From NCBI GenBank assembly GCA_033032865.1, contig JAWHQI010000024.1, positions 186,001 to 250,000 on the forward strand: a stretch of 64,000 bases of DNA, read 5' to 3'. Source of the stretch: Dactylorhiza incarnata. Taxonomy: Eukaryota > Streptophyta > Magnoliopsida > Asparagales > Orchidaceae. Of the stretch, positions 4,262 through 60,081 are shown piece by piece. A program made the position numbers and the translations under genes. How positions within the stretch are numbered: the stretch's first letter is position 1; every line of letters begins with the position of its first letter. The notes below the pieces were generated by a model. That model did no database searches, was not told the origin of the DNA, and saw nothing but the letters and a program-made list of their open reading frames with translations.

Positions 4262-4417
4262 TGTTGGGAATATTATCCTCAATATTCCCTTGATTTGAAG
4301 AAGCCTTACTCTTAGTTCTAAGTACAAGTTGTATTTGATAAACCTCATCTCATAATCATGCAGGGTTAGCTTAGTCAAGGTGTGGAGCAAGTTCAGTTGG
4401 TCTGCTGCCAAAACCAC

Positions 4418-4640
4418 TAAGACGAGCTCTCAGTCTCAGCTAAACCGCTGAGACAAGGCCAGGAGCCGTTGAGAAGGAGTCTGGACCAGCTGAGCTGCGG
4501 ATAGACAAAATCCTCTGAGAAAATTGTCTGTCTCAGCAGATCTACTGAGACGGGACAGAAGCAGCAGCTGAGACGGGACAGAAGCAGCCGCTGAGATAGG
4601 AAGCTGTCCTAGCCCATCTGCTGAGATAGATTCAAATAAG
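4418..4640 (+). promoter_or_regulatory. U3 repeat cluster of A (CTGAGAC/CCGCTGAG family)
   Basis: About ten short direct and inverted matches to C(C/A)GCTGAGAC and its complement GTCTCAGC lie in about 220 bp, for example cagctaaaccgctgagaca. The cluster ends about 110 bp before the TATA box. The same family of motifs occurs at 59020-59200 in the 3' LTR and at 55370-55500, just before the accessory ORF3 of A. Their position suggests an enhancer or protein-binding array. The binder is unknown. Confidence 0.75.
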
Positions 4641-4749
4641 CAGATGGGATTTTCTTTTGGCGCAACAAGCTGTAAAGTGGAAAGGATGTTCCAATCACTC
4701 CCATGCTGTGTCAGGAGGACATCTGATAGCCATTGAAAGTAAAGGGCAA

Positions 4750-4757
4750 TATAAAAG
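4750..4757 (+). promoter_or_regulatory. TATA box of the A 5' LTR
   Basis: TATAAAAG in the middle of the LTR, downstream of the U3 repeat cluster. The same sequence is present in the 3' LTR near 59316. Transcription would start about 30 bp downstream. Confidence 0.7.
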
Positions 4758-5527
4758 CAACAATTAGAGCTTTGAAGAACCTCTCTCCAACACTCACAAA
4801 AGAACAAGTTTACTGTTCCATTGACGGCAGCCAAAAAAATCTTCTAATCCTGTTACCTAAAGCTGCAAGGAGAGAATAGATAGCTCATCTTGATCAACTC
4901 AAGACAGAGCAAGTTGATCTTCACTCTTTCCCTGAAGATAAGGATCAGAAGAATCAAAGTTGAGGCCTTTGAGCTCATCCCAGATTCAAGACTGCTACTG
5001 CAGTTGTTCAGCAACCGAAGATTAAGTGTACTTTATCTTCTTTTGTTAATCATATTTTGATATTACTGTAGGAACTTAACAGTTCTGAGTTGTAGATTAA
5101 AATTGCCTGAGTGTAGGGCTGTCTAGCCTGAGAAGTAGAGCTGTGTGTTCAGCTTGAATGCAAGATCATTGGTTGATCTGAGGTAGGGTTGTTAAGCCTG
5201 AGGTAGAGCTATTTAGCCTGAGTTAAGGTTTGAGAAAACCTAAGATATCCTGAGGGATCTGTGTTGTAAGCTCTTGGAGCTGAGTTTGGAGGTGTTGGCC
5301 TTATCTAACTCCGTGTTAGAAAGGTGAAGGGGGAAAGAGGACTACTCAAGACACCCTGTCTTGAGGAACCTCGATAAATCTTGGTGTGTTTTTTGTATGC
5401 TTGATACTTAACTAACTTAAAATCAGAAAATAGTTAATTTATAGCCTAAAGAAAAAGAAACCTATTCACCCCCCCCCCCCCCCCCCCCTCTAGGTGACTA
5501 AGACTACTTCCTAAACAAACTATCAAG

Positions 5528-5539
5528 TGGTATCAGAGA
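5528..5539 (+). other. primer-binding site of element A
   Basis: TGGTATCAGAGA starts two bases after the LTR end and is complementary to the 3' end of initiator methionine tRNA. The last base differs from the consensus TGGTATCAGAGC. Confidence 0.85.
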
Positions 5540-10054: not shown

Positions 10055-10475
10055 TTCTGCATTCGACGAAAATTAAAAATCGCTCGACTAAAGCAGAAAA
10101 ACTCTGCGTTCGATGATCTTAACTGCGCTCGACGAAGGTAGAACAACTCTACGTTCGACGAAATATTCGTTCGACGAATTATTTCCTGCGGTCGACTAAG
10201 TTGACATCTAACTGTGTTCGACTAAGATAACGTATAACAGCGCTCGACGAACGCTGAACACATCAGCGTTCGACGAAATATTCGCTCGACTAAATCAGAG
10301 CATAACGGCGCTCGACTAATACAGAGTTAAATAGCGCTCGACGAAAACCTTTCGTTCGACTAAATTTTAATATTCAGCGCTCGACTAAATTCTATTATAA
10401 CAGCGCTCGACTAAAGCTGAACACCTCCTGTTCGACGAATTATTCGTTCGACGAATTTCTTGCAGCGCTCGACGA
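10055..10475 (-). repeat. dispersed TCGAC(G/T)AA array in F
   Basis: About 19 copies of (G/T)(C/T)TCGAC(G/T)AA occur in 420 bp at irregular spacing. Several are paired as cgttcgacgaaatattcg. Unlike the 22-bp array in G the spacing is not regular, but the core TCGACGAA is the same. The array ends at a GC-rich block and is a strong CpG-methylation target. Confidence 0.85.
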
Positions 10476-17924: not shown

Positions 17925-19457
17925 TAAAAGACTTTAATAAAGGGTAGCTAATCACCTAGAGGGAGGGTGAATAGGTTATTTTAAAAAACTATTGCAATTC
18001 TTGATTATAACCATAATAAAATTGATCAGAGCTTTCAAGAATAAGAACACACACAGAAAAGATACACAGATTTTTATAGTGGTTGCCCTTATCTTGGGTA
18101 ATCCACTTTCCCCCTTCTCCCCTTCTAGCAGTGTGCTAGATAGGGTTTATAGCTCCTCCAGATCTCAGACCACAAACAGGTCTTACAGCTCAGATCACAA
18201 CAGATCTTACAGTCTCAGATCTCACAGATCTTACAAACTTAGATCTCACAGATCCTACCTCAGCCTTTATAACTAGGCCTACAGCTCAGAATCACCCCTG
18301 AATCCTACAACTCAGATCACACCTGATCTTACAACTCAGATCCTTGACAGATCCTACACTTAGATCTGACAACTCAGATCCTACAGGAATTTATAAAGAG
18401 AATAACAAATACTTAGACTCAGATTCTTCAGATTGTTGAGTCTTCTTGAATTTCCTGAATGATCAGATAGAAAACTTCAATAGAACAACAACAGCAGATG
18501 ATCTTCTTGATTCGACAGGTTGTGATGGTTGTTCTTCTTCTTAGGAAGACAGATTCTTCCTTCTTGATCTTCTACTTTCAGAAAGATGTATCAGCACCAG
18601 ATTGCTGAATGAAATCTTCAAGTCAGATTGGTTCTGAAAGAGAAGATGACTTCTTCAGATTCTTTCTCAGACTTTCCCTCAAAGTGATGGAGAAGATAAT
18701 GGCTTTGGAAAGATAGGAACAATCAACTTAACTTCATAACCCATAGGTCATGCCTTCTATTTATAGCCCGCCATCTGCAACGTCTGTTACGCTCCTCCAC
18801 GTCAGCATGACGTTAAGTTTTCAACGGTCTTCAATGTCTTCTGAAGAAATAAAGGCTTAGCTAGTTATAGAAGATATTCCTCAGTTTAAAGTATTTGTAG
18901 AAGAAGCGTTGATCACTGAGCATCTCTGTCGACGCTTTTTCCATTAGGCATCGAGCGATATGTAGACACTCGACGCTTACTCCTTAGACTGAAGCTCTCG
19001 ACTCCTCCTTCTTAGGCGTTGAGCAATCATCAGTTAGTCGACGCTTTTTATCTGTAGAAGTCGAGCAACATACAGGGGCTCGACGCTTCTTAACTAAACC
19101 TTCACAGCTCGACTCTTCTTGTTTGCGCTGAGCTGACTGAAGTTTAGTCGACACTTCTCTTTCCATGGCGTCGAGTGATATAACTTGGCTCGACGCTTCC
19201 TAACTTGGTCTCAGAACTTCAGCGGCGACCTTTTCTATTTGAGCAGTAGACATGAGTCAATGCTTCTGGGTCACAGGCGTCGAGCGATGTATGATGTCTC
19301 GACGCTTGTGAACTTGGATGGATTCCATGAGCATTTTGCCTGACCTGATCTCCTGCATATTGATTCTAGAGAGTATATCAAATACATTCTGAGATATATC
19401 TTTGACTTAGGAGTGGACTTCTCCAAATCTAAGACATTGTGAGCAATGATCCCAACA
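17925..19457 (-). repeat. 3' LTR of element B
   Basis: Minus-strand LTR from TGTTGGGATCATTG at 19457 to CTTTTA at 17925 (last C of the usual CA mutated). U3 has the TCGACGC cluster at 18905-19310, and the TATA box is at 18758-18765. Downstream lies a region rich in 'cagatctcagatc'-like repeats (18140-18390). Confidence 0.93.
18140..18390 (-). repeat. CAGATC-rich short repeats in the B LTR
   Basis: Dense, irregular repeats of 'cagatct(c/t)aca' units lie in the transcribed part of the LTR. The same block is at 28715-28960 in the other LTR. The function is unknown. Confidence 0.75.
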
Positions 19458-19468
19458 ATCTCCCCCTA
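19458..19468 (-). other. polypurine tract of B
   Basis: The minus strand reads ATAGGGGGAGAT directly before the 3' LTR, in the position expected for the plus-strand primer. Confidence 0.8.
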
Positions 19469-19701
19469 TTTGAAGAAGTCATAATCTCAGTCAATGATAT
19501 ATCTCTCTTTTCAAAGATAATCAATGTTTTCTAATTTTTATACAGGTAATCAAAATAAAGAGTATAATGCGTTATAAAATTAGATTACCAAAACATTCTA
19601 TCCATAGAAATTATCTCAGACATGATTTCTCACATAAGCACAAAAACATAAGCAATTCAGAATAAGACATGTCATGAAGAGAGAAAGAATCACATCTCAG
19701 G

Positions 19702-19704
<3 letters not shown>

Positions 19705-19732
<28 letters not shown>
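19705..19732. repeat. TA microsatellite
   Basis: About 14 TA units between ORF3 and the 3' LTR of B. Confidence 0.9.
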
Positions 19733-19737
<5 letters not shown>

Positions 19738-19830
19738 CATGAAAAATAATTAGCATTGGGAACTCAACAAGATTGTTCAAAAATATATCAATTACATTCT
19801 TCTGAAAATACTTAGTAACAATTAAAATTT

Positions 19831-22373
19831 CTAAAGCTGCTCAGGATCCTTAAATTCAATTCCTCTTTTGGCACTTTTGGAAAGTGCTTCAGCAACTTCC
19901 TTTTTTCTCTTGAAATAACCAAATGGTTTTGGAAAGTATCTGATTGGCTCCATATCACCAACCTGAATCTTCCCAGCCATTTTGTCAGCCTTGAATTTGA
20001 TCTTCAGTTCCTCTTGATCCCTATGCTTTAATCATTCAGCTTCAGAATACCACTTTCCTCTTTCCTCTGGGTTACCTTCCACAGCTTCCCAAGCTGACAG
20101 AATCAATTCTCTGGAAAAGGGAGACCAATGTTCAAAATCAACCCTTGATTGAACCTCTTCTCTGAACTTTCTTTTACTTGATTCAACTTGCTCACTAGTA
20201 AAGTGCTCTCTTTTGTTCTTATCTTCAGGACTATACATTTTAGCAATTTGCTTTTGAACCTGAGTAAGAGAAGCTGGCCTTGTCTCAGAAACTTGATCAT
20301 TCTCATAGTCTATGGGAGGATATCCAAGAATTTCTCTTATAGAGTTGGAGGTCCACACAGCATGTTCAGAACTAGCTTGAATCATTGACCTCTCCCCCTT
20401 TAGGACTTCTTCGACAATATGATCTCTTATCACATTCTTCTGAAATCTGACTTGTCCTTCCAAGTGATTAATTCCACTCTCAATGATTTTCTTTACCTTA
20501 AAGAGATGATCATCTATGGTGTCTGTATGCAATTTTGCTTGATCTTTCAGAACTGTGGAGCTCTCATCAATTTTATCCAGAATATCAGTATTCTGCTGTT
20601 GCAGTCTAGCTTCAATCTTATTTGTACCTGTGCAACCTGTTCCTTATACAGAACTTGCATGTTATTACTTAGTATTCCTTGGTTTGTCTGAACATCATCC
20701 ACTGTCTTTGTAATTCTAGCTTGTGACTCTTTAAGAACCTTTGATGTTTCTTTGATTACATCAAGTTGTTCAGTTGTATAATCTACTGAAGCACCAGCTC
20801 TCTTAAAGAACTTTACCATCTCCTTTCTCAATGCAGATATCTGATGATTGACTTCAAATCTAACCAATTTCAACTGGAAATCTACGTCATTTTTCATTTT
20901 TGTATTATTCTCCTTAATATATTGTTCTAATAATCTTCTTTGATTATTTAGCAACACCTCCAGTTGAGGTAGAATAGGACTAAGATCCACATTGATTTCC
21001 TTTTCCATTTCACCACCTCTACTGCTTTCTTCTCTCATGAAAGAGTCATTTCTTTGGCTCATATGGGAGCTAGAGGATTCTACCTTGATTACCTTTTCAA
21101 TAGGTTCCTTTGTTGCTTCAGGCTCTCCTTCTACATCCATAGCATCAGCTACAGAATTTACTTTAGCAGGGATCTCAGCCTGAGACTCCCCCTCAAAAGG
21201 TGCATTGTCTTCAGATGGAATTCCATCTTGAGGCTCCCCCTCAATCTCTGCATTGATCAGATCAATTTTTTCCTGAGCAGGGATCTCATCCTGAGCCTCC
21301 CCCTCAACTACTGCTTTGCTCATTTCAGAACTATTCAGAGCAGGAATCTCATCTTGAGCCTCTCTCTCATTTTGAAAAATCTCTTCAAGTCTAACAGGGG
21401 ATGCATAATGACTTCCTCTTTCTTCTTCTCCTTTCTCACTCTCATTCTTTTCTTTCTCATTCTCATCCTTTGGAGTGTCAGGAGAACTGTCCCTTTGATT
21501 GTTCCCCTCTTCTTCTTCAGAAGATGTAAGGTTTGGATCATGAATTGGAGAAGATCTAGTTTTTCTATTGGAAGAAGATGAGCTTGATGAACTTGAAGAA
21601 ACCTTCTTCTTCTTTTGCTTCTTGGCTTTCTTTTGCTTGGGAGAAAGATCTGCTGGTTGAAAATTTGATAAGACTCTGTCCCATCTCTCTATCATTCTAA
21701 TATCCATTTTCTTCATGTGGTTTATCTTGGATCCAAGTTTGTTATTCAAGAAATCAGGAATGACTTTTACTAAATACAAAGATAGTATCCTACCCATGTT
21801 GGGTACTTGGATACATTCAATTATCCTGTCAAATATCACTCTCCCCCAATCTGTTCTCAAAGAATGAATAATCCTTGTTAGTAAAATAAACATTTTTCTG
21901 GATATTTTATCATGAGATCCAGTCTTACACAACAGCCCCTTTCCTATCACGTCTGATAGCAATTTTCCTTTTGAGTTCATTCCTTTTCTAAGAATACTTC
22001 CTGTGATTTCTCGAGATGTTTCAATTCCGCACCAGATTTGTGCTAATTTAATCTGTTCTGAGGTCACTTCTTCTTCTTCACTTCTCTTTAACCTAGGCAG
22101 TTCTAGTGCCTTAGCGAGTCTGGATGGAGTGATCTTAATCTTCTTACCATTCACACTGGTCTTAAGCTTTGAATTGACGGAGTCTATTACTATATTGGAT
22201 TAAAGTTCTAATACCTCTCTTTTCCAGATAAGGGATGATTCAGATAGTACGAATTCTAATCCAGCCTTGTAGATTAGCTCAATGGTTGATTTGATTTCTT
22301 CTGGAGCAGATTGGAATCCATTTCGAACAAGCTCGCTTCCTTCATAAAGATAATCGCTGCTTTTGGGACGCAT
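19831..22373 (-). pseudogene. accessory ORF3 (env-position) of element B
   Basis: The ATG at 22373 lies about 110 bp after a TATA box and 425 bp after pol. The start MRPKSSDYLYEGSELVRNGF matches the start of A ORF3. A folded N-terminal domain (about residues 1-220, with GKLLSDVIGKGLLCKTGSHD and NMGRILSLYL) resembles the plant-transposon accessory domain often found in such elements. A Ser/Glu-rich linker with 'AQDEIPA' repeats, then long coiled-coil-like helices, then a basic end follow. One in-frame TAA near 22203, a frameshift near 20545 and a stop at 20032 break about 847 codons. No signal peptide or clear membrane segment is seen, so calling it an envelope protein is not supported. Confidence 0.75.
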
Positions 22374-22478
22374 TGTTGTTGATGATCGAAGAGAGAAGGA
22401 ATTGATTGAGAGATTTTCTAGGGCAGCTAATTTCGAACTGAGAGAACTAGGGCATATGCACTAACGAAGTGTCTTCCC

Positions 22479-22745
22479 TATTTATAGAAGTTCTAATTCA
22501 AGAAGATGAATAGCCGCGCGCCGAACTTGTTTGACAAGATTGATCTAATGGTTCAAATTGACCCTGTCGAGACGGCCTAGCTATGTTTGCACAAGCGTTG
22601 AGATAGCTCGACGCCATTTATCTTCCGTCGATGCCAGGTATCTTCTCGACGCCAGATATCGTCTCGATGCCAGGTATCTTCTCTCGACGCCAGGTGGTTT
22701 CTGTCGACGCTAGGTATCTTCTTTCGACGCCAGGTATCTTCTCCA
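22479..22745 (-). promoter_or_regulatory. internal promoter-like module before B ORF3
   Basis: On the minus strand, 53 bp after the pol stop, come about seven TCGACGCCAGGTATCTTC-like units (22745-22560). They are followed by TATAAATA (22486-22479) and, about 106 bp later, the ORF3 start codon. The TCGACGC core is the same motif that fills U3 of B's own LTR. The arrangement suggests that ORF3 has its own transcript rather than being made by read-through or splicing of the full-length RNA. Confidence 0.65.
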
Positions 22746-22797
22746 CTTACTTTTTAGGACACAAACATTACTTTCATTTATTTAATCCAATACAACT

Positions 22798-28495: not shown

Positions 28496-30030
28496 TGAAA
28501 GACTTTAATTAAGGGTAGCTAATCACCTAGAGGGGGGGGGTGAATAGGTTATTTTAAAAAACTATTGCAGTTCTTGATTATAACCAAAATAAAACTGATC
28601 AGAGCTTTCAAGAATAAGAACACACACAGAAAAGACACACATATTTTTATAGTGGTTCCCCTTATCTTGGGTAATCCACTTTCCCCCTTCTCCCCTTCTA
28701 GCAGTGTGATAGATAGGGTTTATAGCTCCTCCAGATCTCAGACCACAAACAGGTCTTACAGCTCAGATCACAACAGATCTTACAGTCTCAGATCTCACAG
28801 ATCTTACAAACTCAGATCTCACAGATCCTACCTCAGCCTTTATAACTAGGCCTACAGCTCAGATTCACCCCTGAATCCTACAACTCAGATCACACTTGAT
28901 CTTACAACTCAGATCCTTGACAGATCCTACACTCAGATCTGACAACTCAGATCCTACAGGAATTTATAAAGAGAATAACAAATACTTAGACTCAGATTCT
29001 TCTGATTGTTGAGTCTTCTTGAACTGCCTGAATGATCAGACAGAAAACTTCAATAGAACAGCAGCAGCAGATGATCTTCTTGATTCGACAGGCTGTGATG
29101 GTTGTTCTTCTTCTTAGGAAGACAGATTCTTCCTTCTTGATCTTCTACTTTCAGAAAGATGTATCAGCACCAGATTGCTGAATGAAATCTTCAAGTCAGA
29201 TTGGTTCTGAAAGAGAAGATGACTTCTTCAGATTCTTTCTCAGACTTTCCCTCAAAGTGATGGAGACGATAATGGCTATGGAAAGATAGGAACAATCAAC
29301 GTAACTTCATAACCCATAGGTCATGTCTTCTATTTATAGCCCGCCATCTGCAACGTCTGTTACGCTCCTCCACGTCAGCATGACGTTAAGTCTTCAATGA
29401 TCTTCAATGTCTTCTGAAGAAATAAAGGCTTAGCTAGCTGTAGAAGATATTCCTCAGTTTAAATTATTTGTAGAAGAAGCGTTGATCACTGAGCATCTCT
29501 GTCGACGCTTTTTCCATTAGGCGTCGAGCGATATGTAGACACTCGACGCTTACTCCTTAGACTGTAGCTCTCGACTCCTCCTTCTTAGGCATTGAGCAAT
29601 CATCAGTTAGTCGACGCTTTTTATCTGTAGAAGTCGAGCAACATATAGGGGCTCGACGCTTCTTAACTAATCCTTCATATCTCGACTCTTCTTCTTTGCG
29701 CTGAGCTGACTGAAGTTTAGTCGACACTTCTCTTTCCATGGCGTCGAGTGATATAACGTGGCTCGACGCTTCCTAACTTGGTCTCAGAACTTCAGCGGCG
29801 GCCTTGTCTATTTGAGCAGTAGACATGAGTCAACGCTTCTGGGTCACAGGCGTCGAGCGATGTATGATGTCTCGACACTTGTGAACTTGGATGGATTCCA
29901 TGAGCATTTTGCCTGACCTGATCTCCTGCACATTGATTCTAGAGAGTATATCAAATACATTCTGAGATATATCTTTGACTTAGGAGTAGACTTCTCCAAA
30001 TCTAAGACATTATGAGCAATGATCCAAACA
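28496..30030 (-). repeat. 5' LTR of element B
   Basis: 1,535 bp, minus strand from TGTTTGGATCATTG at 30030 to AGTCTTTCA at 28496. Same layout as the 3' LTR: TCGACGC cluster, TATA box, CAGATC-rich transcribed part, and a C-run of nine before the end. Confidence 0.93.
29331..29890 (-). promoter_or_regulatory. U3 repeat cluster and TATA box of B
   Basis: From about 29890 to 29480 (minus strand) there are more than a dozen GCGTCGA/TCGACGC units, mostly in inverted pairs such as aagcgtcgag...ctcgacgc. About 140 bp later comes TATAAATA (29338-29331). The same core motif is repeated before ORF3. Confidence 0.8.
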
Positions 30031-30713: not shown

Positions 30714-31837
30714 TGTTGGAGCATGCGTTCCGCACTCGTCCGGTTTGGGAATAACAAATCCTGAATGTATTTGATCTTATATTTGATTAATTTTGTGCAG
30801 GGATAACAGATATTTTATGTACTAAGATTTTGCTGAGCAGATCAATGAAGAAAATGAAACTCGCAGTATCGCTAGCGTTAACTCTATCGCCAGGCGATAG
30901 CGTCAACGGTTGCTGCTGACGTCAGCCATGTTCCACACGTTGTCGCGCTCGAAGCCACGTTACAGCACTATCGCGGGGCGATATCGCTATCGCCAAGCGA
31001 CAGCACACGATCAGCAACGTTCCGCGCGACAGCCCACATTGTCCAGCCACGTTTCAGCGATACCGCGGGGTGATATCTATATCGCCGCACGATAGCTGGC
31101 AGTTGTGAAAAGTTCTATAAAAAGGCCACGAATTTCAGAGTTTTGAATATGTTGAAAGAGCCTTGATTCCCAGAGCAGATTCCAGACGAACTTCCTTGGT
31201 CCAGTACATTTTTAAGAGCGAAGGAGATTCGACCGTACTTTCGAGATTGAAGATCTTCCCATTGGTCGACCATCATCTTCAGAGCTCTTCTTGAGGGATT
31301 TTTAGTTTCATATATTGTATTTACATTTTTCCATTTCATAAATTGTAATTGGTTTGGGAAAATCATCGTCGTGTGTGCGGTGTCTAAGTCCGTGTGAGGC
31401 TTAGGGAAAATCATCACCTTGTGTGTGGTGTTAGATCCTTGTGTGGTCTAGGGTAAATCATCGTCTTATGTGCGGTGTCAAGTCCTTGTGTGGCTTGGGA
31501 GAAAATTGCCGCAGTGTGTGCTGCGTCTAGATCAAGATTTGATATAGGGGGAGGCTTGTGTCTGTATCTGGGAGATATAGGTTATAGCCAACCGGTCCTT
31601 AGGAGAAGGACTGGTGAAAAGAGACAAGAGATTTTATTAATTGTAAGCCTTTGATTCCAAGCTTTATTGGAATCATTTCTACTCATTATCTTTGATGAAA
31701 TAAAATCTTGTTTTTAAATTCAATTATTTGTCTCTATATTCATATATTGTTTCGTTCTTTACAAAAATTATCAAAGGTTTAAATTGCCCTTATTCACCCC
31801 CCCCCCCCCCCCTCTAAGTGCGCCACAAGATCCAACA
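30714..31837 (+). repeat. 5' LTR of element C
   Basis: TGTTGGAGCATGCG...GATCCAACA. U3 holds the palindrome cluster and a TATA box. R/U5 has short 'gggaaaatcatcg(t/c)cgtgtgtg' repeats (31355-31520) and a run of 16 C before the end. Confidence 0.95.
30865..31123 (+). promoter_or_regulatory. U3 palindrome cluster and TATA box of C
   Basis: About eight half-sites or full sites of CTATCGCC(N)GGCGATAG, for example ctatcgccaggcgatag at 30889-30905, lie between 30865 and 31095. TATAAAAA follows at 31116-31123. The same motifs recur at 33519-33555, 37277-37312, 38505-38540 and 38932-38970 in the same element. Confidence 0.8.
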
Positions 31838-31887: not shown

Positions 31888-33819
31888 ATGGCGCACCATG
31901 GTCATGCATTTTCCGAGGGGCAAGGAATAACTAGACCACCATTATTTACGGGTTCCGATTATAATTATTGGAAAACTAGGATGAGGTGTTTTTTAATATC
32001 ATTAGATATTGAAGTATGTAATATGGTTGAAACAAATTATACTCATCCTACTTTTACAATTGGTGATATTGTCATGGAGAAACCCAAAGATAAATGGGAT
32101 GACCAGGACAAATTAAAATGCAAAAATAATGCAAAAGCAATGAACGCATTATTTTGTGCTCTTGATAAAACTGAATTTAATAGAACCTGCGCATGTCAAA
32201 CTGCATATGAAATTTGGAATTTATTGGAAATTACTCATGAAGGTACCTCGCAGGTGAAGGACTCAAAGCTTTTCCAATTGGAGTCAGAATTCGCAAAGTT
32301 CAGGATGGAGGTAGATGAGGATGTGGATACCATGTACACAAGATTCACTAAGATAGTAAATGACTCAAAAGCTTTAGGAAAAAATTTCTCAAATGGTGAT
32401 TTGGTAAGAAAACTTCTTAGATCTCTCCCCCCTAAATTCAATCCCAAAGTGACGGCTATTTCTGAATCTCATGATCTTAAAGCTCTTAATATTGAAAGCC
32501 TGATTGGGAACTTGAAAACTCATAAAGTTGAATTGAAAATTCAACAACAAGAGTATATGGAGCCAAAGAAGAAGGGATTGGCTCTAAGATCTAATAAGGA
32601 GGAAAGTAGTGATTCTGAGGAGGAAGAAGAAGATGAGGAAAGTTTATTTGTTAGAAAGTTTAGAAAATTTATGAAAAATCCAGAGAGTAGGAATTCATTT
32701 ATGAAGTATTTTAAGAAGGAGACGTTTAGGAAGAAAAAAGGAAAGGTAGACGATGAGGAGGAAGAGAGACCGCCACCGGAGTGCTATCACTGCAAGAAGT
32801 TAGGACACATCCGAAGCAAGTGTCCAAAGTATTTAAAAGAACTTAAAGAAAAGAAGCACAAAGGGACGAAGAAGGTGCTGAAGGCGGAAACATGGGATGA
32901 TACTACTTCTGAGGATGCAAGCAGTTCAAGCTCAAGTAAAGAAGAGGAGGCCAACATGTGCTTAATGGGAAAGAGCATCATATCTGATGATGAATGCAGT
33001 GTCCAAAGTGACACTGAGGTAACTCCTCCAACCTACGATGAATTATTTTCTGAATTTTTAAAGACTTGCAAATTTTTTGAAATGAGTTTAAAAGATAATG
33101 ATCTTCTTAAATCTGAAAATGAAATTTTGCTTAAAGAAAACAAAAAATTGTTAAATGAAATTAAGACTATTGGAAAAAGAGAAATTTCTTGCCAAGGGTG
33201 TGATCACTTTTTGGGAAGAATTAAAGAACTTGAAGAATCTCTTTCCAAATCTCATTCTACAATAAAAATTCTTACCAAAAAGAATGAGATTTTAGAGAGA
33301 GATCTGAAATCTTCAATTTCCAAAGTCCATGAGGGAAAGAAATCTTTTGAACGTAGATGTGTAAATCTAGTATCCGAGAATACATAAATGAGAAACCAGA
33401 TTCATGACTTAACGCTAGCCATGAAAAAATTTGGAATGGGCCGAAGATCACTTGATATGATCTTAGGATACCAATGTCATGGATCTGGAAGGTTTGGACT
33501 CGGATACACGTCAGGAAGCTATCGCCCGGCGATAACCACTGTCGCCGGCGACAGCGAAAAGTCCAGAAATTCTGTTTTTAAAAATTCTGAAGTTAGTAAA
33601 TTGTCTAATACTGCATCCTCATCCAGTAAAAGTCCAGAAAAGTTATACTCTTCTCAATACATTACATGTGCCAAATGCAATAGATTTGGTCACACTACGG
33701 ACTCTTGCTGGAGGAAAGGAAAAAGTAAAATTAAACAAATCTGGGTGCCTAAGGCTTCTTCTTATACTATGGGTGGAACCACTTGGGTAACCAGATCTTT
33801 ACTCACCTCTTCTTTCTAG
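31888..33819 (+). pseudogene. gag: gag of element C
   Basis: The ATG is at 31888. One frame, broken by a TAA at 33385 and a TAG at 33817. The capsid domain covers about residues 1-230 (YNYWKTRMRCFLIS, TAYEIWNLLEITHEGT). A Glu-rich stretch is followed by a knuckle, CYHCKKLGHIRSKC (32782-32823), then a Ser/Glu region and a long coiled coil, and a second knuckle, CAKCNRFGHTTDSC (33667-33708). Between the coiled coil and the second knuckle the frame reads through two copies of the element's palindrome (33519-33555). Pol follows in the same frame. Confidence 0.92.
33519..33555 (+). repeat. palindromic motif pair inside C gag
   Basis: ctatcgcccggcgat and actgtcgccggcgacagcg lie within coding sequence and encode a short variable linker (SYRPAITTVAGDSEKS). 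They match the motifs in U3 and around the antisense gene of the same element. Confidence 0.8.
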
Positions 33820-36911: not shown

Positions 36912-37058
36912 TGTAACAGCCCTAGCCCGAACCACTACAGGGCTTCACCGGGACCCTTCAGGAACTGTTAGACGTCCTGGACAATGGTGGCCAGGCGTCT
37001 AACAGTTCCTGAAGGGTCCAGGTGAAGCCCTGTAGTGGTTCGGGCCAGGGCTGTTACA
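36912..37058 (+). mobile_element. 147-bp hairpin insertion in C
   Basis: Two arms of about 69 bp are inverted repeats of each other with about three differences, separated by a loop of about 8 bp. It starts TGTAACAGCCC, ends GGGCTGTTACA, and is flanked by gaatc at 36907-36911 and 37059-37063. It lies at the last codons of pol. The TG...CA ends and 5-bp duplication are LTR-like, while the full-length inverted structure is foldback-like. I do not recognise the family. Confidence 0.85.
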
Positions 37059-37448
37059 GAATCTTAGAAATATAAATCTTAAAAAAAAATTTGTAATTAT
37101 TTCTAGAAATTGCATGTATTTAATTCTTATGTATTATCAAAAATTATTAAATTATTTACTCTTATAATATGTAATTAAACAAACTATCACAAAACAAAGT
37201 CAAATTATCATCAAAATTCTCTCCAAATGCATATGATAAAACCAGAACAGAAAAACAGATCAAAGATAGAGTTTTCACTATCGCTGGGCGACAGTGATGT
37301 CGCCGGGCGATATCTCATACTTCTTCAAAGCATAAATACTATTATATCCACAGCACTAAATCTATCACTCATCCAGATTTTCTTCAGAAGCAGCAATATC
37401 ATCACTAGAGATCGGTGTAGGTTCTCTAGCTCTTCGGGTTCGCCTTAT

Positions 37449-38441
37449 TTAATGACGTGGAGGATCCCATTCTCTCTCTTCTTCCGGCGTTGGTTTTAGC
37501 TTCATCCCCTTTACTAGAAACTTCATAAATTTTTTGATACCCGAATTACTTCGCTTTTGTTCTTCTTTAATCTCCTCAACCGAATCACTTAGATCTTCTA
37601 TTCTTTCACGTAAAGACCCTCCTCTTCGGAGTGGTTGTCTTGAAGAAGATGCTACTCTAGGAGAAGGAACTCTAGCTGGTTCTGTGATAGTATGTATAGC
37701 CGGGATACAATCGTCAATGTAGATTTCTTGGTCTATCCATCGATATTTATTATATATGAGCCTTTGAATAACACTTCCTAATGGAAGTGTATTCAATTTC
37801 CTCCTAAGAGGATGCTTCATCTTATACGTATATCGTATAATGGATAAGACAAAATCAGCCACATCGAACCTCACTTTCTCTAATATATAGTAAGTCACCA
37901 AGCTCAATTGAGCCGTGATCTTCCTTGTATCTCCGGTCTTTAACATAACGGTATTCCTTAATATCTCTTGCACGATAAAAGCATCGCGACTAAGTGATGT
38001 GATATCTTGAATCAAACCACTATTATCCTTCCCATGAAGCCTTTGATTCAAACATGTCCAATCCCGATCTTTTCGGAAAATTTCCACGATATCAATCCTA
38101 TTGTCTTCACAAGTTGCAAGACCATATTCATTTCTGAGATCTTCATGGGTGATCTCTATTTCCCCTCCTTGAATTTTAGACTTTATGCCTCCATTCAAAC
38201 CCGTATTTTTTTAGTCTTCTAAGTTATTATAAAATTCTCTAACAAACCACGAGGCGAACATATCCGGTATAATGAGGGACATTATATCTACCTCAACCAA
38301 ACACTCATATATATGTGTTGGCACAGATCCATCCAAACATTTTGGAACACCGATTGATGCATTCTCAATACCAGAATATGATTGGAACGAGGAGTGAGGG
38401 TTGTTGCTGGTAGATTTCCTGGCACGAGATGATGATGCCAT
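37449..38441 (-). pseudogene. antisense accessory ORF of element C
   Basis: The ATG is at 38441-38439 and the stop at 37449, on the strand opposite to gag-pol. One in-frame TAA (38211-38213) splits 331 codons; the frame is otherwise open. The layout (WFVREFYNNLE near the start, then an EITHEDLRNEYGL segment, a helical region around ITAQLSLVTYYILEK, a GSVIQRLI segment and a basic Glu/Lys-rich end) resembles the accessory proteins found in many plant transposable elements and is reminiscent of the N-terminal domain of ORF3 in A and B. No signal peptide is seen. A TATA box and a 5'UTR intron lie upstream. The function is unknown. Confidence 0.7.
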
Positions 38442-38444
38442 TTC

Positions 38445-38817
38445 CTATTATGAAATAAGAAAAACTTTCAGAAATCTAAAATTAAAAATTTCGGAATTGT
38501 TCACTACCGCCGGCGACAGTACTGTCGTCGGGCGATATATCCAAATCAATTCTTATGCTACTCATATCTAAAATTAGAAATTTATAGATATACCCTTAGA
38601 TTTTGTTTATAATCACTAAAATTGCATAAACATTGTAAATCTACAACAAAAAAATCAACATTAGTGATTATTTTTCATTAAAAAAAAAATTTAGATCTAA
38701 AATGTATGATCAAAATGAAAAATTTTTCCTTGGATCTATCTTCTTTCATCATCAAGATTCTAGATCTATTGTTATTTTTGATGAACCATACAAATTTGAA
38801 AGAGATCTAAGGCATAC
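38445..38817 (-). other. predicted 5'UTR intron of the antisense gene of C
   Basis: The minus strand has AAAAG|GTATGCC at 38817 and a T-rich tract ending in CATAATAG|GAA at 38445. That gives a 373-nt intron ending three bases before the ATG. An antisense intron is not removed from the genomic RNA, so it can persist through retrotransposition. It contains one copy of the palindromic motif (38505-38540). Confidence 0.6.
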
Positions 38818-38914
38818 CTTTTGGAGTTTTTAGGGTTTTCGGAGAAGGAAGATGAACTCCAGCAGTTTAGGGTCGGTCAAATGAGAATATTGGACTTGCC
38901 TTTCCGATTTTTCG

Positions 38915-38970
38915 CTTTTTATATAAAAAACCACTATCGCCGCGCGTTATCACTGTCGCCGGGCGATATC
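38915..38970 (-). promoter_or_regulatory. promoter-like module of the antisense gene of C
   Basis: In minus-strand order: two palindromic motifs (gatatcgcccggcgacagtg and a GCGATAGTGG half-site), then TATATAAAAA at 38925-38916. The mRNA would start near 38885, leaving a first exon of about 70 bases before the predicted donor. The motif is the one found in U3 of C. Confidence 0.6.
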
Positions 38971-39169
38971 TATTTTCCTTCATTTTTCAAATCAACTTCT
39001 GAGCTGTCTTTTTACAAACATGTTTCTAGTATTACAGTAGTAATTTTGAATAGTTATCATGGTACCATAGCTAGTACATGTGATTCTTCATTTATGAGTC
39101 CTTTCAACATTGTTCTTAATTTCTCTTGCTTAAGATATCTATTTATATTTGTGATGACTAGAAATTGAG

Positions 39170-40331
39170 TAAAATTGTTCTGCATGCCTCTAAGTATAAG
39201 AAATTTTTTATCTATGACAATGAGCAATCACAAACACTTACTTTGCAATTACATGTTAATAAAATTTATTTTATACATACATCATGATTGCTCGAACATA
39301 ACAAAATACATTTCATAAATGTTGCCTTCAACTTTGCTACTTTGCACTTATTCAAATTATACCATTTTTTTACATGCAAGTGAATTCGGAAATCCTTTAC
39401 ATACATAAATATTCAAAAAAAAAATTCAAATGCAAAACATATATTTTGCCAAAAATTCTGAAAGAAAAATTAAAAAATTGAAAAGGATCCTCCACCAAGC
39501 ACTACTTAGCCTCCTGATAAGTCTTAATGAGCATTGTGAGGTTAAGCACCTTGGAAAGAATTGTAAAGTGTCTTGTTATGCAGAAACAAAATGGTCCTTT
39601 TATATACTTGCAAAGTTTCGGTAAGTTTATAAGTTTGGCTTTATGTATATTTATGTTATGTTTAACAATTCCATGTTCATGTATATTTTAAATATATTCA
39701 TATGTATTCTTTTTCAAAGTATCACTACTACACTTCATTGTTATTTATAAAATTTCTTCTTATGAGAATTGGACCAGAAATAGTTTATCTTTTTTTCTTT
39801 CATCTGTCTTATTGATTTATATATCTTAGCTTGACTATTTTCAATGTTCAAATTATACTCATACATTAGCTTTTTCCACATGTCACAACTTCTTCCATGA
39901 TTATATTCCAAATTTCATTGTACTCCTACTCCATGTTTATCATTGTTGATATTCTACTCCTCTTGTTTTCAAAATTCTTTTACCAATTTATAACTCTCTC
40001 ACTTCTTTACGCTTCTGCATTTGCTACTCAATTCAAATAATCTATTTTATATTCCATACCCCACCTTCTTTTGATAATATCAAAGGGGGAGAAGATAATA
40101 AGAAATCACTTAAATTACTTAATTAATACAGGGACCATACATGTAGGAGGAGTTTATATGTCGGGGAGTTTATATGAGAGAATATTTTTAGAAGGAGCTA
40201 ATATTAAGGGGGAGATCATATTAAGGGGGAGATCATGGAGATCATATGTTCACACTTGTAGACACATAATATACTTTTCAATATCTCTATAGAATTTATT
40301 TGATTTCTTTTTATAAGGATTTGTTATTATC
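39170..40331. other. AT-rich non-coding spacer of C
   Basis: Very AT-rich, with no supportable gene. It ends in purine-rich blocks (about 40085-40225, repeated 'aagggggagat') that look like degenerate polypurine tracts before the real one. Confidence 0.65.
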
Positions 40332-40343
40332 AAAAGGGGAGAT
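40332..40343 (+). other. polypurine tract of C
   Basis: AAAAGGGGAGAT directly before the 3' LTR. Confidence 0.85.
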
Positions 40344-41465
40344 TGTTGGAGCATGCGTTCCGCACTCGTCCGGTTTGAGAATAACAAATCCTGAATGTAT
40401 TTGATCCTATATTTGATTAGTTGTGTGCAGGGATAGCAGATATTTTATGTACTAATATTTGGCTGAGCAGATCAATGAAGAAAATGAAACTCGCAGTATC
40501 GCTGGCGTTAACTCTATCGCCAGGCGATAGCGTCAACGGTTACTGCTGACGTCAGCCATGTTCCACACGTTGCCACGCTCGAAGCCACGTTATAGCACTA
40601 TCGCGGGGCGATATCGCTATCACCAAGCGACAGCACACGATCAGCCACGTTCCGCGCGACAGCCCACGTTGTCCAGCCACGTTTCAGCGATACCGCGGGG
40701 CGATATCGATATCGTCGCGCGATAGCTGGCAGTTGTGAAAAGTTCTATAAAAAGGCCACGAATTTCAGAGTTTTGAATATGTTGAAAGAGCCTTGATTCC
40801 CAGAGCAGATTCTAGACGAACTTCCTTGGTCCAGTACATTTTCATGAGCGAAGGAGATTCGACCATACTTTCGAGATTGAAGATCTTCTCATTGGTCGAC
40901 CATCATCTTCAGAGCTCTTCTTGAGGGAGTTTTAGTTTCATATATTGTATTTACATTTTTCCATTTCATAAATTGTAATTGGTTTGGGAAAATCATCGTC
41001 GTGTGTGCAGTGTGTAAGTCCGTGTGAGGCTTAGGGAAAATCATCACCTTGTGTGTGGTGTTAGATCCTTGTGTGGTCTAGGGTAAATCATCGTCTTGTG
41101 TGCAGTATCAAGTCCTTGTGTGGCTTGGGAGAAAATCGCCGCCGTGTGTGCTGCGTCTAGATCAAGATTTGATTTAGGGGGAGGCTTGTGTCTATATCTG
41201 GGAGATATAGGTTATAGCCAACCGGTCCTTAGGAGAAGGACCGGTGAAAAGAGACAAGAGATTTTATTAATTGTAAGCCTTTGATTCCAAGCTTTATTGG
41301 AATCATTTCTACTCATTATCTTTGATGAAATAAAATCTTGTTTTTAAATTCAATTATTTGTCTCTATATTCATATATTGTTTCGTTCTTTACAAAAATTA
41401 TCAAAGGTTTAAATTGCCCGTATTCACCCCCCCCCCCCCCTCTAAGTGCGCCACAAGATCCAACA
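40344..41465 (+). repeat. 3' LTR of element C
   Basis: 1,122 bp, nearly identical to 30714-31837, with 14 C instead of 16 in the homopolymer run. TSD gtatg follows. Confidence 0.95.
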
Positions 41466-54587: not shown

Positions 54588-55165
54588 TACCAGGCTTATC
54601 CTAAGGAATCTCACTACTCAGCTGCAAAGAGGATTTTGAGATACCTTAAAGGCAGCCTACATCTTGGCCTTTGGTATCCTAAGAACAATGATTTTGAACT
54701 AACTGGATTTTCAGATGCATATTTTGCAGGCTGCAAAGAAGGCAGGAAAAGCACAAGTGGCACCTGTCAATTCCTAGGAAGAAGGTTAATATCATGGAGC
54801 AGCAAAAAGCAGACATGTGTGGCTATATCCACTGCTGAGTCTGAATACATTGCTGCAGGAATTTGTTGTGCATAGCTATTGTGGATTCAACACCAGCTAG
54901 AGGACTACAACCTCACGGTAAGTGAGTCTCCTCTTTATTGCGACTCATCCAGTGCCATCTCTATTGCTAAGAATCCTGTCTCACATAGCAGGACCAAGCA
55001 CATAGAGATAAGGTATCACTTTTAAGAGAACATGTTGAATGTAAAGACATCTCCCTTGAATTTGTCCGCACTGACAGTCAAGTTGCTGATATCTTTACAA
55101 AGCCATTGGATGAAGCAAAGTTTAATTCCTTCAAGATTGATCTAGGAATGTTAAATGTAGAATAA
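54588..55165 (+). pseudogene. pol: pol of element A, 3' part (end of RT and RNase H)
   Basis: Continues from 44662 after insert D with YQAYPKESHYSAAKRILRYL. RNase H shows FSDAYFAGCKEGRKSTSGT (the usual DAD is DAY), TAESEYIAAG and SRTKHIEIRYHF. A TAG at 54873 and a small deletion near 55021 break it. It ends LGMLNVE at 55165, matching LGMLKMD in B. Confidence 0.92.
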
Positions 55166-55369
55166 ATGCCAAACATTTTCTTATTTCAATCATCTATGAT
55201 GATATGCTATTGTCATAACTATGCATTTAAAGTATTGTGTTTATGATTCATAATTTTGTCTCATCAACAAACCTATTGACACAGTTAGGACATCACTCAA
55301 GCAGATCTTAAAAGGTCTAATGTTCAGGTAGTTAGATCAGCTTAAACAAAAAGCCTATTTCAGCTAAAC

Positions 55370-55610
55370 CGCTGAGACAGCTGGGAAGCATCTCAGCTGA
55401 ACCACTGAGACTGCTAAAACTGTCCCAGCGGTTGCTTGTGCCCTGTCCCAGCGGTCAAGGTAGTAGTCTCAGCGATTCCACTAAGACGGGCTAGTCTCTT
55501 TAAAATTTGTCTATTTGCACCCCAACTAACCTAATTCCCCTCAAAATTATAAGTTCACTTAACTCTAATTAAAGGGGCTAATCATGAAACAAAATTAGGT
55601 TATATAAATA
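55370..55610 (+). promoter_or_regulatory. internal promoter-like module before A ORF3
   Basis: About eight CCGCTGAGAC/GTCTCAGCGG-type motifs lie at 55373-55490, including cagctaaaccgctgagaca, a 19-base exact match to U3 of the A LTR. TATAAATA follows at 55603-55610, 98 bp before the ORF3 ATG. No splice acceptor is needed to explain ORF3 expression with this layout. Confidence 0.65.
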
Positions 55611-55707
55611 GTCAATCTTAATTAGTGAAAGGTACATGACCCTTCTTTCCTAGCCGCCGAGACGAATCACCTACTCTTCCATCCCAGCGCATTCTTCTGC
55701 CACAGCA

Positions 55708-58428
55708 ATGGCTCCCAAAAGCTCTAAAGATCTTCTTGAAGGATATGAAATATTCAGGAATGGGTTTTCCCATGCTCCTGAAGAAATCAAGGGAGTGTTC
55801 AACTCCTTGAAGACGAAGGCCTGGAATTTCTACTATCTGAACCCTATATCATTCTCAGAACTGAAGTTCTGGAATGGTTTGGTCATGCCAAGTTATCCAC
55901 TTCCAAGTCTTCCCTCAAGTCAAAGATAGGCGAAGATAGAATATAGATAATCCCTACAAAGCTACAAAAAGCCTTAAATCTTCCATCTTGCAGTCCAAGT
56001 GAGGAGGAAGACATCTCAGAGAAAGACAAGAAAAAGGCTCTGAAATGGACTGGGTACAATGATGCCAAAACAGGATCATTGAAAAGGAAATTCTTCAACC
56101 AAAAAGGAAAACTTTTATCAGATATTGTGGGAAAGGCTATCCTTTGCAAACCAGGGTCACATGACACAATCTCACAGTTCATGTTTGATCTCATGACAAG
56201 AATAATACTCAAAAGGAAAACCTCTTGGGGAGAGGTCCTATTTCAAAGAATCAAGGAATGCCTGTTGGCGCCCAACATGGGCAGAATTCTTTCCCTATAC
56301 CTACTCCAAACCTACCCCAACAAGTTTAGCAAATCCAAAGGAGCAAACCTTCACTATCTCAAGAGAATGGACATTAAGACCCTGGACAGGTTCACCAGGG
56401 TGCTTCCGATGAGTCAGCCCACTGTGGCAAAAGAAAAGGAGAAGATAGCATCCAAATTCACCAAGAAAACTAGAATAATTATGTCAAGCTCTGAGTTTGA
56501 CCACTCTGATGAAGATGTCGGTGCTGACATTGGATCACACAGCAAACTTGACAAGGATTCTACAAAGGATGACATGTCAACTGACATTGTCCCTTCACAG
56601 GTGTTGGTCCAAGATATAACTCCTGGTAACTAATACCTTAACTCCACACTCCTCATTTAATTAATTGATCATAGCCAATCAATTAGGTAGTTATTTTTAA
56701 CACTTGCACAATGTGGACAACAGCTCCTCAAAGACTGCTGAGTGCTCCATCTGAGGGGGAGTTACACCAAGAATCATCCTCCTTAGATATACCCAATATC
56801 AATGATAATGATAAAGACAAGGGGCCTTCATCTCTGGATTTACAAGGTATGATTGATAAGCTTATTTTCAATCTTGAAGAAAGAATAAGGCTTAATCAAG
56901 ATAATGAACCAACCCTCTGGTCTTTACCTTCACCAAGACAATCTGAAGCCCCATATGAGGGGGAGCTGCAGCAAGAGCCACAAGTACATAGAGATGATGA
57001 CAAAGATGCTCTCTCTGAGGGGGAGGAGCCAGAAAATGCTGCCGATGCAATAGATGATTCTGATGATGATCAAGTCTATCCAGATCACATTGAAGAAATA
57101 ACTTCCTTTGCTGAGATGGTGGATACTCCAGCTGCAGAATTGCCTGAACCTCCAGTACAACTAGTGCTCCACATTGCCAACCCTCCAAGTCTACCAAGGC
57201 CCCCAGCCCCAATGATCAATGATCAGCAAACCTCCACTTCAACTTCATCAAATGAGAATATTCTCAATGCTATCAACCTGCTGCTACAGTCTCATCTCAC
57301 TTCAATGAAAACTTATGTTGATCAATCAATTACAACAATCAAAGACTATATTGATTAGTCCATCATGAATGTGAAGACTGAAGTCATGACTGAGATCAAG
57401 GAAATCAAGGAGAACACTGGAATTCTAAACAAGTAGATGACCAAATGGTTTGACTGAGCAGAAAAGACAGTAATTTCTCAGAATACAATTCTTAGATCCA
57501 TGGACAAACATCTCAGACTCTCTGAACAAGATATGTCCTATGTCAAAAATTATGTCAGCAAGACTGATGAGGTAATAAAAAATCAACCAATCATCTCCAA
57601 GATTATATCTACTCCACTGCCATGTAGTTGGATGGAGAAGCTGACAGGAACAAGGAAGAGTTGAAAGCAGATATTGCTAATGTTTCCCAATCTATTGCTG
57701 CCTCAGTCACTGCTTCCCACTTAAATTCTGAGGTAGTCAAACTGCAAGAGGTGCTACAAGCTAATATTGAGAATATTTTCCAAACCCTGTCTGGCACAAT
57801 CTATACAGCTAAACAAGATCTACATCAACAAGTATTTGAAGAAGCCAGAAAGGGGGAGGATACAAATGCTATCATAAAGGCTGACTTAACTCTCAAGGTA
57901 CTGCAAGGTACTAGGCTTGCTCTAAATCTTCCTCTCTTAGATGTAAATAGGGAAGAAGATTGGGACTTCCCAAGTCAAGAGGCAATAGCTCAAAATGCAA
58001 ATCTGAAGAAAAAAAGAGAAAAAGAAAAGACATTGTTGGCAGAAGAATTCATGGCCAAGCAAAGGGAGGTGCAACACAGAGATCCAGATTATGAATATTG
58101 GAGTGATGACTCCAAAGAAATCATCTTGAATGCCTGGGTGAGTCATGGACAAGTATGTCAAAATATTGATAAAATTTACCCATCTAAAGAGTGGATAAAA
58201 TACTTGGAGAGAAATACTAAGAGAGATAGAGTATTCAAAGAAAATTTGGTAAAGAAAGACAATCCAACAAGAATGCCTTCAAGATATATTCCAAAGCCAT
58301 ATCTATACTTCAAAAGGCAAGAGAACAAAAGGAAATTAGCTGAAATTGAGGCTCCCAAAGAGAACGGAAAAGAAGTTGTTGATGACACTCCTGAGGGATC
58401 TTCTTCTTCTAAGAAAAGAAAACTCTAA
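55708..58428 (+). pseudogene. accessory ORF3 (env-position) of element A
   Basis: The start MAPKSSKDLLEGYEIFRNGF matches B ORF3. The domain around 56079-56420 (GKLLSDIVGKAILCKPGSHD, NMGRILSLYLL) is shared with B. Then come an acidic Pro/Glu linker with repeated 'EGELQQEPQ'-like phrases, helical coiled-coil-like stretches and the C-terminal PKPYLYFKRQENKRK...SSSSKKRKL, which looks like a nuclear localisation signal. A stop near 55929, breaks near 56634-56710 and stops at 57358 and 57436 interrupt about 907 codons. Sense orientation, after pol. No signal peptide or membrane helix is evident, so a nuclear role fits better than an envelope role (inference). Confidence 0.75.
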
Positions 58429-58848
58429 ATGAATGTATAAATGTCTTATGAATGACTGGATGTAAATTGAACTATAATTTATCTGAAATGTTTTAAAATT
58501 GAACTATGATTCATTACCTTTTCTGCATTGCTAATGAATGGATTGTTAAATTTATTACCTTTTGTCATAAGCTAATATGTGATATAACTTAAATTTTACC
58601 ACTGTGTTAATGATTAAGTTAATCTGTGATGCTCTGTCATACTCATCTTATCATATTACTGAAATATTAAACTTGGTTTGTAACACACATGTCATGTATA
58701 TCATATCTAATATAATATCCCAAATGTCTTGTTAATGATTATATAAGTATGTTATAATGATTATCATGTTGTGAAGTCCATGATAAGTACTTTTATGATA
58801 TGTACTCTAGCATTAAGGCTATTCTGCCCTCTTCAAATATGGGGAGAT
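58429..58848 (+). other. 3' spacer and polypurine tract of A
   Basis: AT-rich spacer without a gene. ATATGGGGAGAT at 58837-58848 is the polypurine tract before the 3' LTR. Confidence 0.75.
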
Positions 58849-60081
58849 TGTTGGGAATATTATCCTCAATATTCCCTTGATTTGAAGAAGCCTTACTCTT
58901 AGTGCTAAGTACAAGTTGTATTTGATAAACCCTATTTCCATCTCATAATTATGCAGGGTTAGCTTAGTCAAGGTGTGGAGCAAGTTCAGTTGGTCTGCTG
59001 CCAAAACTACTGAGCTCTCAGTCTCAGCTGAACCGCTGAGACAGGGCCAGGAGCCGTTGAGAAGCAATCTGGACCAGCTGAGCTGCAGATAGATAAAATC
59101 TATTGAGACAACTGTATGTCTCAGCGGATCCGCTGAGATGGGATAGAAGCAGTCGCTGAGACAGGAAGCTGTCTCAGCCTATCCGCTGAGATAGATTCAA
59201 ATAAGCAGACGGGTTTTTATTTTGGCGCAACAAGCTATAAAGTGGAAAGGATGTTCCAATCACTCCCATGCTGTGTCAGGAGGACATCTGATAGTCGTTG
59301 AAAGTAAAGGGCAATATAAAAGCAACAATTAGGGCTTTGAAGAAGCTCTCTGCAACACTCACAAAAGAACAATTTTACAGTTCCATTGATGGCAGCCAAG
59401 AAAAGCTTCTAATCATGTTACCTAAAGCTGCAAGGAGAGAACAGATAGCTCATTTTGATCAACTCAAGACAGAGCAAGTTGATCCTCACTCTTTCTCTGA
59501 AGATAAGGATCAGAAGAATCAAAGTTGAGGCCTTTGAGCTCATCCCAGATTCAAGACTGCTACTGCAGTTGTTCAGCAACAGAAGATTAAGTGTACTCTA
59601 TCTTCTTTTGCTAATCATACATTGATATTACTGTAGGAACTTAACAGTTATGAGTTGTAGGGCAAAATTGCCTGAGTGTAGGGTTGTCTAGCCTGAGAAG
59701 TAGAGATGTGTGTTCAGCTTAAGTGTAGAATCATTGGTTGATCTAAGGTAGGGCTGTTGAGCCTGATGTAGGGTTGTTTAGCCTGAGGTAAGGTTTGAGA
59801 AAATCTGAGAGATCCTGAGGGATCTGTGTTGTAAGTTTTTGGAGCTGAGTTTGGAGGTGTTGGCCTTATCTAACTCTATGTTAGAAAGGTGAAGGGGGAA
59901 AGAGGACTACTCAAGACACCCTGTCTTGAGGAACCTCTATAAATCTTGGTGTGTTTTTTGGATTCTTGATACTTAACTAACTTAAAAATTAGAAAACAGT
60001 TAATTTATAGCCTAAAGAAAAAGAAACCTATTCCCCCCCCCCCCCCTAGGTGACTAAGACTACTTCCTAAACAAACTATCA
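58849..60081 (+). repeat. 3' LTR of element A
   Basis: 1,233 bp, TGTTGGGAATAT...AACTATCA, with the CGCTGAGAC cluster at 59020-59200, TATAAAAG near 59316 and 15 C in the homopolymer run. It is followed by cttta, a near-match to ctcta left of the 5' LTR. Confidence 0.93.

Follow-up and report, generated by a model that had tools for sequence, protein, structure and literature searches.

Why should a retrotransposon carry the same short repeat twice, once in its long terminal repeat (LTR) and again before an additional gene? The question is raised by a 64,000-nt stretch of Dactylorhiza incarnata DNA (the window), in which plant LTR retrotransposons are nested as a stack and self-BLAST finds five LTR pairs. 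Three of the elements, A, B and C, have an accessory (ENV-like) open reading frame (ORF). Each of the three repeats its own short box in the U3 part of its LTRs and before that ORF, in both places upstream of a TATA-like site. Two other elements are referred to as D and E. The boxes probably form a shared two-promoter module that would be read by a dimeric nuclear factor, and this factor is more likely to belong to the host than to be the accessory protein.

The box repeats and their controls

The LTRs of A, B and C contain the following features.

Element A, 5' LTR: 4262..5525, plus strand; U3 half-site cluster at 4428-4626, TATA-like site at 4750
Element A, 3' LTR: 58849..60081, plus strand; U3 half-site cluster at 59016-59191, TATA-like sites at 59236 and 59315
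Element B, 5' LTR: 28498..30030, minus strand; U3 half-site cluster at 29479-29878, TATA-like site at 29338
Element B, 3' LTR: 17927..19457, minus strand; U3 half-site cluster at 18906-19305, TATA-like site at 18765
Element C, 5' LTR: 30714..31837, plus strand; U3 half-site cluster at 30867-31086, TATA-like site at 31116
Element C, 3' LTR: 40344..41465, plus strand; U3 half-site cluster at 40497-40724, TATA-like site at 40746

The internal clusters, the TATA-like sequences and the accessory reading frames, all of which are interrupted, lie as follows.

Element A, internal box cluster: 55358..55473, plus strand; precedes the accessory ORF
Element A, TATATAAATA: 55601..55610, plus strand; between the internal boxes and the accessory ATG at 55708
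Element A, accessory (ENV-like) reading frame: 55708..58428, plus strand; broken into several pieces
Element B, internal box cluster: 22608..22730, minus strand; GCGTCGA seven times on one strand, five of them exact, at intervals of 18-20 bp
Element B, TATAAATAGG: 22477..22486, minus strand; between the internal boxes and the accessory ATG at 22373
Element B, accessory reading frame: 19831..22373, minus strand; broken, largest piece 20547-22199
Element C, internal boxes: 38935..38968, minus strand; precede the antisense accessory ORF; TATATAAAAA (38925) is 9-11 bp away
Element C, second box cluster: 38505..38537, minus strand; between TATATAAAAA (38925) and the accessory ATG at 38441
Element C, accessory ORF: 37449..38441, minus strand; antisense to gag-pol, two pieces split by an in-frame stop
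Element C, third box cluster: 37279..37312, minus strand; lies 3' of the accessory ORF, half-sites spaced at 8 and 19 bp as in U3

Sharing between the two places was measured by the CG-containing 9-mers common to an element's own U3 and pre-accessory region. There are 11 in A, 19 in B and 6 in C, against means of 0.15, 0.93 and 0.36 in dinucleotide shuffles. None of 300 shuffles reached the observed number in any element, and no control window taken elsewhere was as good (0/588 for A, 0/589 for B, 0/588 for C). CG 8-mers again gave 0/300 shuffles for each element, with control windows at or above the observed value in 1/589 for B (at 10001) and 5/588 for C. When all k-mers were counted, A kept 0/300 shuffles and 0/588 windows, and B kept 0/300 shuffles with 0/589 windows for 8-mers and 2/589 for 9-mers. 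C was the weakest, with 4/300 and 10/300 shuffles and 5/588 and 18/588 windows. The shuffles and control windows together rule out chance composition as the origin of the sharing. Across elements there was no enrichment of shared k-mers: every one of 24 tests, which covered six pairs among these elements at four settings, gave 61/300 or more.

The individual motifs are concentrated accordingly in their own elements. Exact GCGTCGA occurs 28 times in the window: 8 and 8 times in the two U3s of B, 5 times in its pre-ORF region, nowhere else in B, not at all in A, C, D or E, and 7 times at 60369-60702, outside all of them. Exact GGCGATA occurs 18 times, with 5 and 4 copies in the U3s of C, 3 before and 1 after its accessory ORF, 2 between gag and pol and 3 elsewhere. 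The A motif, CGCTGAGA, is found 51 times at up to one mismatch, 8 times in each U3 of A, 8 times in its pre-ORF region and 27 times elsewhere; its density, 14.6-17.1 per kb in these regions of A, does not exceed 2.5 per kb in any other region named. Half-sites at up to one mismatch number 11, 10 and 11 in the 5' U3, 3' U3 and internal region of A, 14, 15 and 10 in B, and 10, 12 and 6 in C.

The original prediction was that each element repeats a private CpG motif in U3 and before its accessory gene, beside a second TATA box in the latter place. The repetition is borne out in all three elements by the CG 9-mers, and TATA-like sites follow the internal boxes in A, B and C. Privacy holds among the three elements, which show no cross-enrichment, but strict privacy of every motif is ruled out for B. 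Its core, CGTCGA, occurs 55 times in the window and also clusters outside B at 2.0-2.6 kb (11), 10.0-10.5 kb (10) and 60.3-60.7 kb (9). The description as a CpG motif suits B and C, with 34 and 35-37 CG per U3, and fits A less well, with 8-9 in about 480 bp.

The arrays outside B have their own features. The region just past the 3' LTR of A (60369-60702) contains seven exact GCGTCGA/TCGACGC half-sites in DNA without a BLAST match to B. It was considered as part of a B-type LTR and rejected, as BLAST at E<=1e-3 matches 60082-61000 to nothing else in the window. To the left of E, at 10062-10475, lies a dense array of CTCGAC (9) and TTCGAC (8), with CTCGAC on one strand only and a CpG observed/expected ratio of up to 2.6. 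An array at 2000-2608 has a 22-bp period and the core CGTCGAG, and its ratio reaches 3.0.

Half-site geometry

The order of features is the same at all three internal sites: box cluster, TATA-like box, accessory ORF. In A, the half-site nearest to the TATA-like site is 123 bp away in the LTRs and 127-129 bp away internally; the second TATA-like site of the 3' LTR is 44 bp from its nearest half-site. The corresponding distances in C are 21-29 bp in the LTRs and 9-11 bp internally.

Spacing between half-sites is also shared. Inverted pairs at 13 bp occur in A twice in the 5' U3, three times in the 3' U3 and twice internally. C has two recurrent spacings, 8 bp for inverted and 19 bp for same-strand pairs, and both are found in U3, before the ORF and in the cluster past it. 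B has inverted pairs at 22 bp in U3, and its internal cluster consists mainly of direct repeats at 18-20 bp. A jitter test that moved sites by up to 10 bp gave p values of 0.017 for A, 0.0008 for the pre-ORF region of C and 0.001 for its post-ORF cluster, for geometries that were chosen from the U3s after the data had been seen and are uncorrected for other choices. Such constant spacing suggests a DNA-binding protein that acts as a dimer or is itself regularly spaced. Because the box lies near a TATA-like site in both places, and because A and C share the half-site spacing between them, a single regulatory module for the two promoters is favoured.

Two further C-type half-sites, at 33519-33534, form an inverted pair with the 8-bp spacing seen in the U3 of C. 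The pair sits in an open frame (33388-33816) between the gag and pol ORFs of C.

Sirevirus hallmarks and RM-like boxes

By the hallmarks given in PMC2829016, A, B and C appear to be Sireviruses, which are plant Ty1/copia elements, with an accessory gene. One hallmark is the polypurine sequence AGGGGGAG in the linker.

Element A, linker: 55160-58848; 4 copies of AGGGGGAG
Element B, linker: 19458..22796, minus strand; 5 copies of AGGGGGAG
Element C, linker: 36972-40343; 3 copies of AGGGGGAG

Outside the linker, A has one more copy and C two more; D has none and E has one. The terminal copy near the 3' LTR is exact in B and has one mismatch in A and C. The Sirevirus junction past the 5' LTR is defined as CA / A(T or G)TGG / TATCAGAGC (PMC2829016), and it reads CA-AGTGG-TATCAGAG in A, B and C alike, with the ninth base of the primer binding site (a C) present in element C only. 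The pol of all three is of copia type, with RVT_2 matches at E 6e-71 in A, 4.5e-72 in C and 1.8e-24 in a partial piece of B. A poly-C or C-rich signal lies close to the 3' end of their LTRs, and the TATA-like site is mid-LTR.

The layout of A, B and C is already published. Bousios et al. 2010 (PMC2829016) described RM boxes, repeated palindromes upstream of the LTR TATA with additional copies upstream of ENV, in 13 elements from monocots and eudicots. In that work, boxes are recognized where eight or more copies cluster in the upper LTR. Of 79 linker boxes, 77 are upstream of ENV, and an internal ENV promoter is argued for. The arrangement noted in the original prediction is thus a rediscovery with variant boxes. 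By half-sites, A, B and C have at least eight copies in the upper LTR and further copies before the accessory ORF. This count is looser than that of PMC2829016, where the units scored are whole palindromes of the 3' LTR and the linker.

The likeness extends to high-copy repeats in the upper LTR before the TATA box, an element-specific box and more copies before ENV. Dyad symmetry gives a mixed picture: fixed-spacing inverted pairs occur in both places in A and C, and B has inverted pairs in U3, but its internal copies, unlike the RM boxes described, are mainly direct repeats. Another difference is the CGG-CCG core, which all the published boxes but that of Tnd-1 have (12 of 13; PMC2829016) and which is nearly absent here. 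In C, moreover, the accessory ORF runs antisense and is flanked by boxes, with two clusters on its promoter side and one past its end; antisense ENV is unmentioned in the portions of PMC2829016 consulted. By eye, a plausible leader intron lies between the antisense TATA of C and its accessory ATG (38445-38820, minus strand).

Grande, RIRE2 and Athila are Ty3/gypsy elements. Antisense additional ORFs between pol and the 3' LTR are reported in plant LTR retrotransposons (PMC7264820, PMC4093653), and two of the elements with such ORFs in the excerpts used, pvRetro13 and Retand, are likewise Ty3/gypsy, whereas C is a Ty1/copia element with Sirevirus hallmarks. Grande gene23 is described as antisense and placed between pol and the 3' LTR like the ORF of C; it has its own promoter, as is suggested for C. 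A limited literature search found no report of an antisense extra ORF in a Sirevirus, which is not proof of novelty.

A probable common reader at two promoters

From the presence, specificity, placement and geometry of the boxes we infer promoter activity, binding and the kind of factor that would bind. The repeats would be the counterpart of the RM boxes and would act as an upstream activator array at two promoters, of which the LTR promoter would drive gag-pol and the internal promoter the accessory gene. The reader of the boxes would be a nuclear factor, dimeric and specific for its sequence. Both transcripts would then respond to the same signal, since one factor would read the boxes at both promoters. 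A host transcription factor, with sites that differ from family to family, is more likely in this role than the accessory protein.

The published elements bear on this choice. In the material available from PMC2829016, four of the 13 boxed elements (OPIE-2, PREM-2, Osr8 and Tnd-1) lack ENV, and these have boxes in the LTR and none in the linker. The box sequence varies by element, yet OPIE-2 and PREM-2 have one in common, and the boxes of Osr10, Osr8, Vitis and Inga are nearly identical despite low sequence homology. A common reader fits better than a private one because elements without ENV are boxed and because boxes of distant plants are nearly identical. The commonest palindrome of maize Helitrons is reported to be the maize Copia palindrome (PMC10760457), in line with what a common reader of the site would produce.

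Several points weigh against a common reader at two promoters. One copy of each family was examined. The CGG-CCG core, sought as CGG-N0-7-CCG, occurs at one site (59125, in the 3' U3 of A) in the ten regions tested, and because it is found once the arrays are called RM-like. Protection of half-sites between an element's own LTRs is not clear: differences fall at 2 of 69 half-site and 28 of 383 other U3 positions in A, 3 of 98 and 20 of 594 in B, and 3 of 67 and 16 of 335 in C, and a clear signal of purifying selection on half-sites is absent from this comparison. In B, the distance from box to TATA is unequal (140 bp in the LTR, 31 bp internally), and the match between U3 and internal geometry fails the jitter test (p = 0.65). 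We know of no plant factor for the sites of A, B and C, with motif databases unsearched.

Accessory proteins and alternative explanations

The accessory protein could itself be the reader. VANC proteins of VANDAL DNA transposons bind short motifs in non-coding tandem repeats, and these motifs change between related families (PMC5735166). By analogy, each accessory protein would bind the box of its own element, both in U3 and at the internal promoter, to activate or unsilence that element, box and protein co-diverging. This is unlikely, although several features speak for it. A, B and C have different boxes in the same placement. VANDAL elements likewise combine a fast-evolving extra protein with family-specific short non-coding motifs, as far as described (PMC5735166, PMC10398659). 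The accessory N-terminal domains of A and B are homologous (47% over 190 residues) and more diverged than the integrase and reverse transcriptase pieces (72-76%); their start regions match, and the C-terminal part matches weakly (25%, E 2e-7). No membrane span was found over the ten accessory pieces, the highest 19-residue hydropathy mean being 1.39 on a simple scale applied to broken proteins. Because they have no such hydrophobic stretch, the pieces lack the mark of a retroviral-type envelope. Runs resembling nuclear localization signals occur in two A and two B pieces.

Other observations stand against accessory-protein binding. VANDAL elements are DNA transposons, and their VANC protein, for which binding is demonstrated, carries DUF1985 and DUF287. 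Of the accessory pieces of A, B and C, seven were scanned (three short ones were left out), and neither of these domains nor any DNA-binding domain was matched at E<=0.1. Neither C piece has a nuclear localization-like run. The C protein is not tied to that of A and B: the homology is not established by BLASTP (E 0.15) or hhalign (E 0.034, probability 1.5%), and a forced alignment gives 20% identity. An AlphaFold model of the B accessory domain was unusable (mean pLDDT 36.6). The clusters of the B core outside B and the boxed elements without ENV count against a private reader as well. Of the interpretation in the original prediction, then, what stands is the same box near a TATA-like site in both promoter regions, to which A and C add a common half-site spacing; binding by the accessory protein is not supported.

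Homologues of the accessory proteins were also sought. The largest B piece matches Pfam PF20167 Transposase_32 at E 7e-6, under the curated cut-off. Transposase_32 is also reported in the additional ORF of sunflower Athila, for which the part of PMC11728184 used describes no link between box and protein. Two further Pfam matches (E 0.06-0.07), two PDB sequence matches (E 0.067 and 0.088) and two NCBIfam matches far under cut-off were taken as chance. Among 7995 candidates scored there was no homologue of the largest B piece at E<=0.001, and viral contigs contained no homologue of the B reverse transcriptase or of the A/B accessory domain.

Somewhat less likely again is that the boxes are kept mainly as palindromes that form hairpin RNA or draw host small RNAs, reflecting a silencing conflict instead of activator binding. 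Maize Sirevirus palindromes are reported to be small-RNA hotspots in a rapidly evolving region (PMC5311732, PMC10760457), and predicted RNA structure is strong at the U3 and internal clusters of A (z -4.2 and -3.4) and at the third cluster of C (-3.9). However, the z-scores are weak in the U3 of B (-1.2), in the U3 of C (-1.4) and before the ORF of C (-1.7), and hairpins are therefore not the common principle. At the internal cluster of B, z is +0.10 and the copies are mainly direct repeats, which rules out RNA hairpins as the sole cause there; a reader of double-stranded DNA fits better because hairpin potential is absent. Hairpins alone also leave the position before a TATA box in both places unexplained.

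It is more doubtful still that the accessory genes are self-contained regulatory cassettes, a retrotransposon counterpart of VANC whose proteins bind their own box at fixed half-site spacing. If they were, the antisense, box-bounded cassette of C could act as a switch for the promoters of its element even though its own transcription opposes theirs.

Least probable, and very improbable in our view, is that the boxes are minisatellite-like repeats without function, passed between LTR and linker through gene conversion or template switching and retained by chance, which would suit the CGTCGA repeats elsewhere in the window and the lack of clear half-site conservation between LTR copies but not the half-site geometry common to U3 and internal clusters in A and C, nor the placement before a TATA box, which is the same in A, B and C and in the monocot and eudicot elements reported in PMC2829016.

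The nested elements and their surroundings

By self-BLAST A is outermost: the interval between its LTRs holds B (minus strand), C and D, and E as well. The divergence between an element's own LTRs is 6.4% in A, 3.1% in B and 3.2% in C, which is in keeping with A as the older host of the nest. The reverse transcriptase of D is of the RVT_1 type, unlike the copia-type RVT_2 of A, B and C, and D is therefore assigned to another superfamily. A gag-like ORF with a sub-threshold zinc-knuckle match (3566-4258, minus strand) abuts the 5' LTR of A and is probably a piece of the element into which A inserted. CpG-rich and GC-rich short tandem repeats of about 37-38 bp lie at 61994-62194.

Implications

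To the published layout, this locus adds the half-site geometry, the folding differences between clusters and an antisense accessory ORF boxed on both sides in C. A two-promoter box with fixed half-site spacing is a concrete probe for whichever protein binds it. With three families at one locus, each with another box, the model of a host factor can be told apart from that of a self-encoded one. If the reader is self-encoded, a retrotransposon anti-silencing system would follow. If it is not, Sireviruses would tie the accessory gene to the signal that gag-pol obeys.

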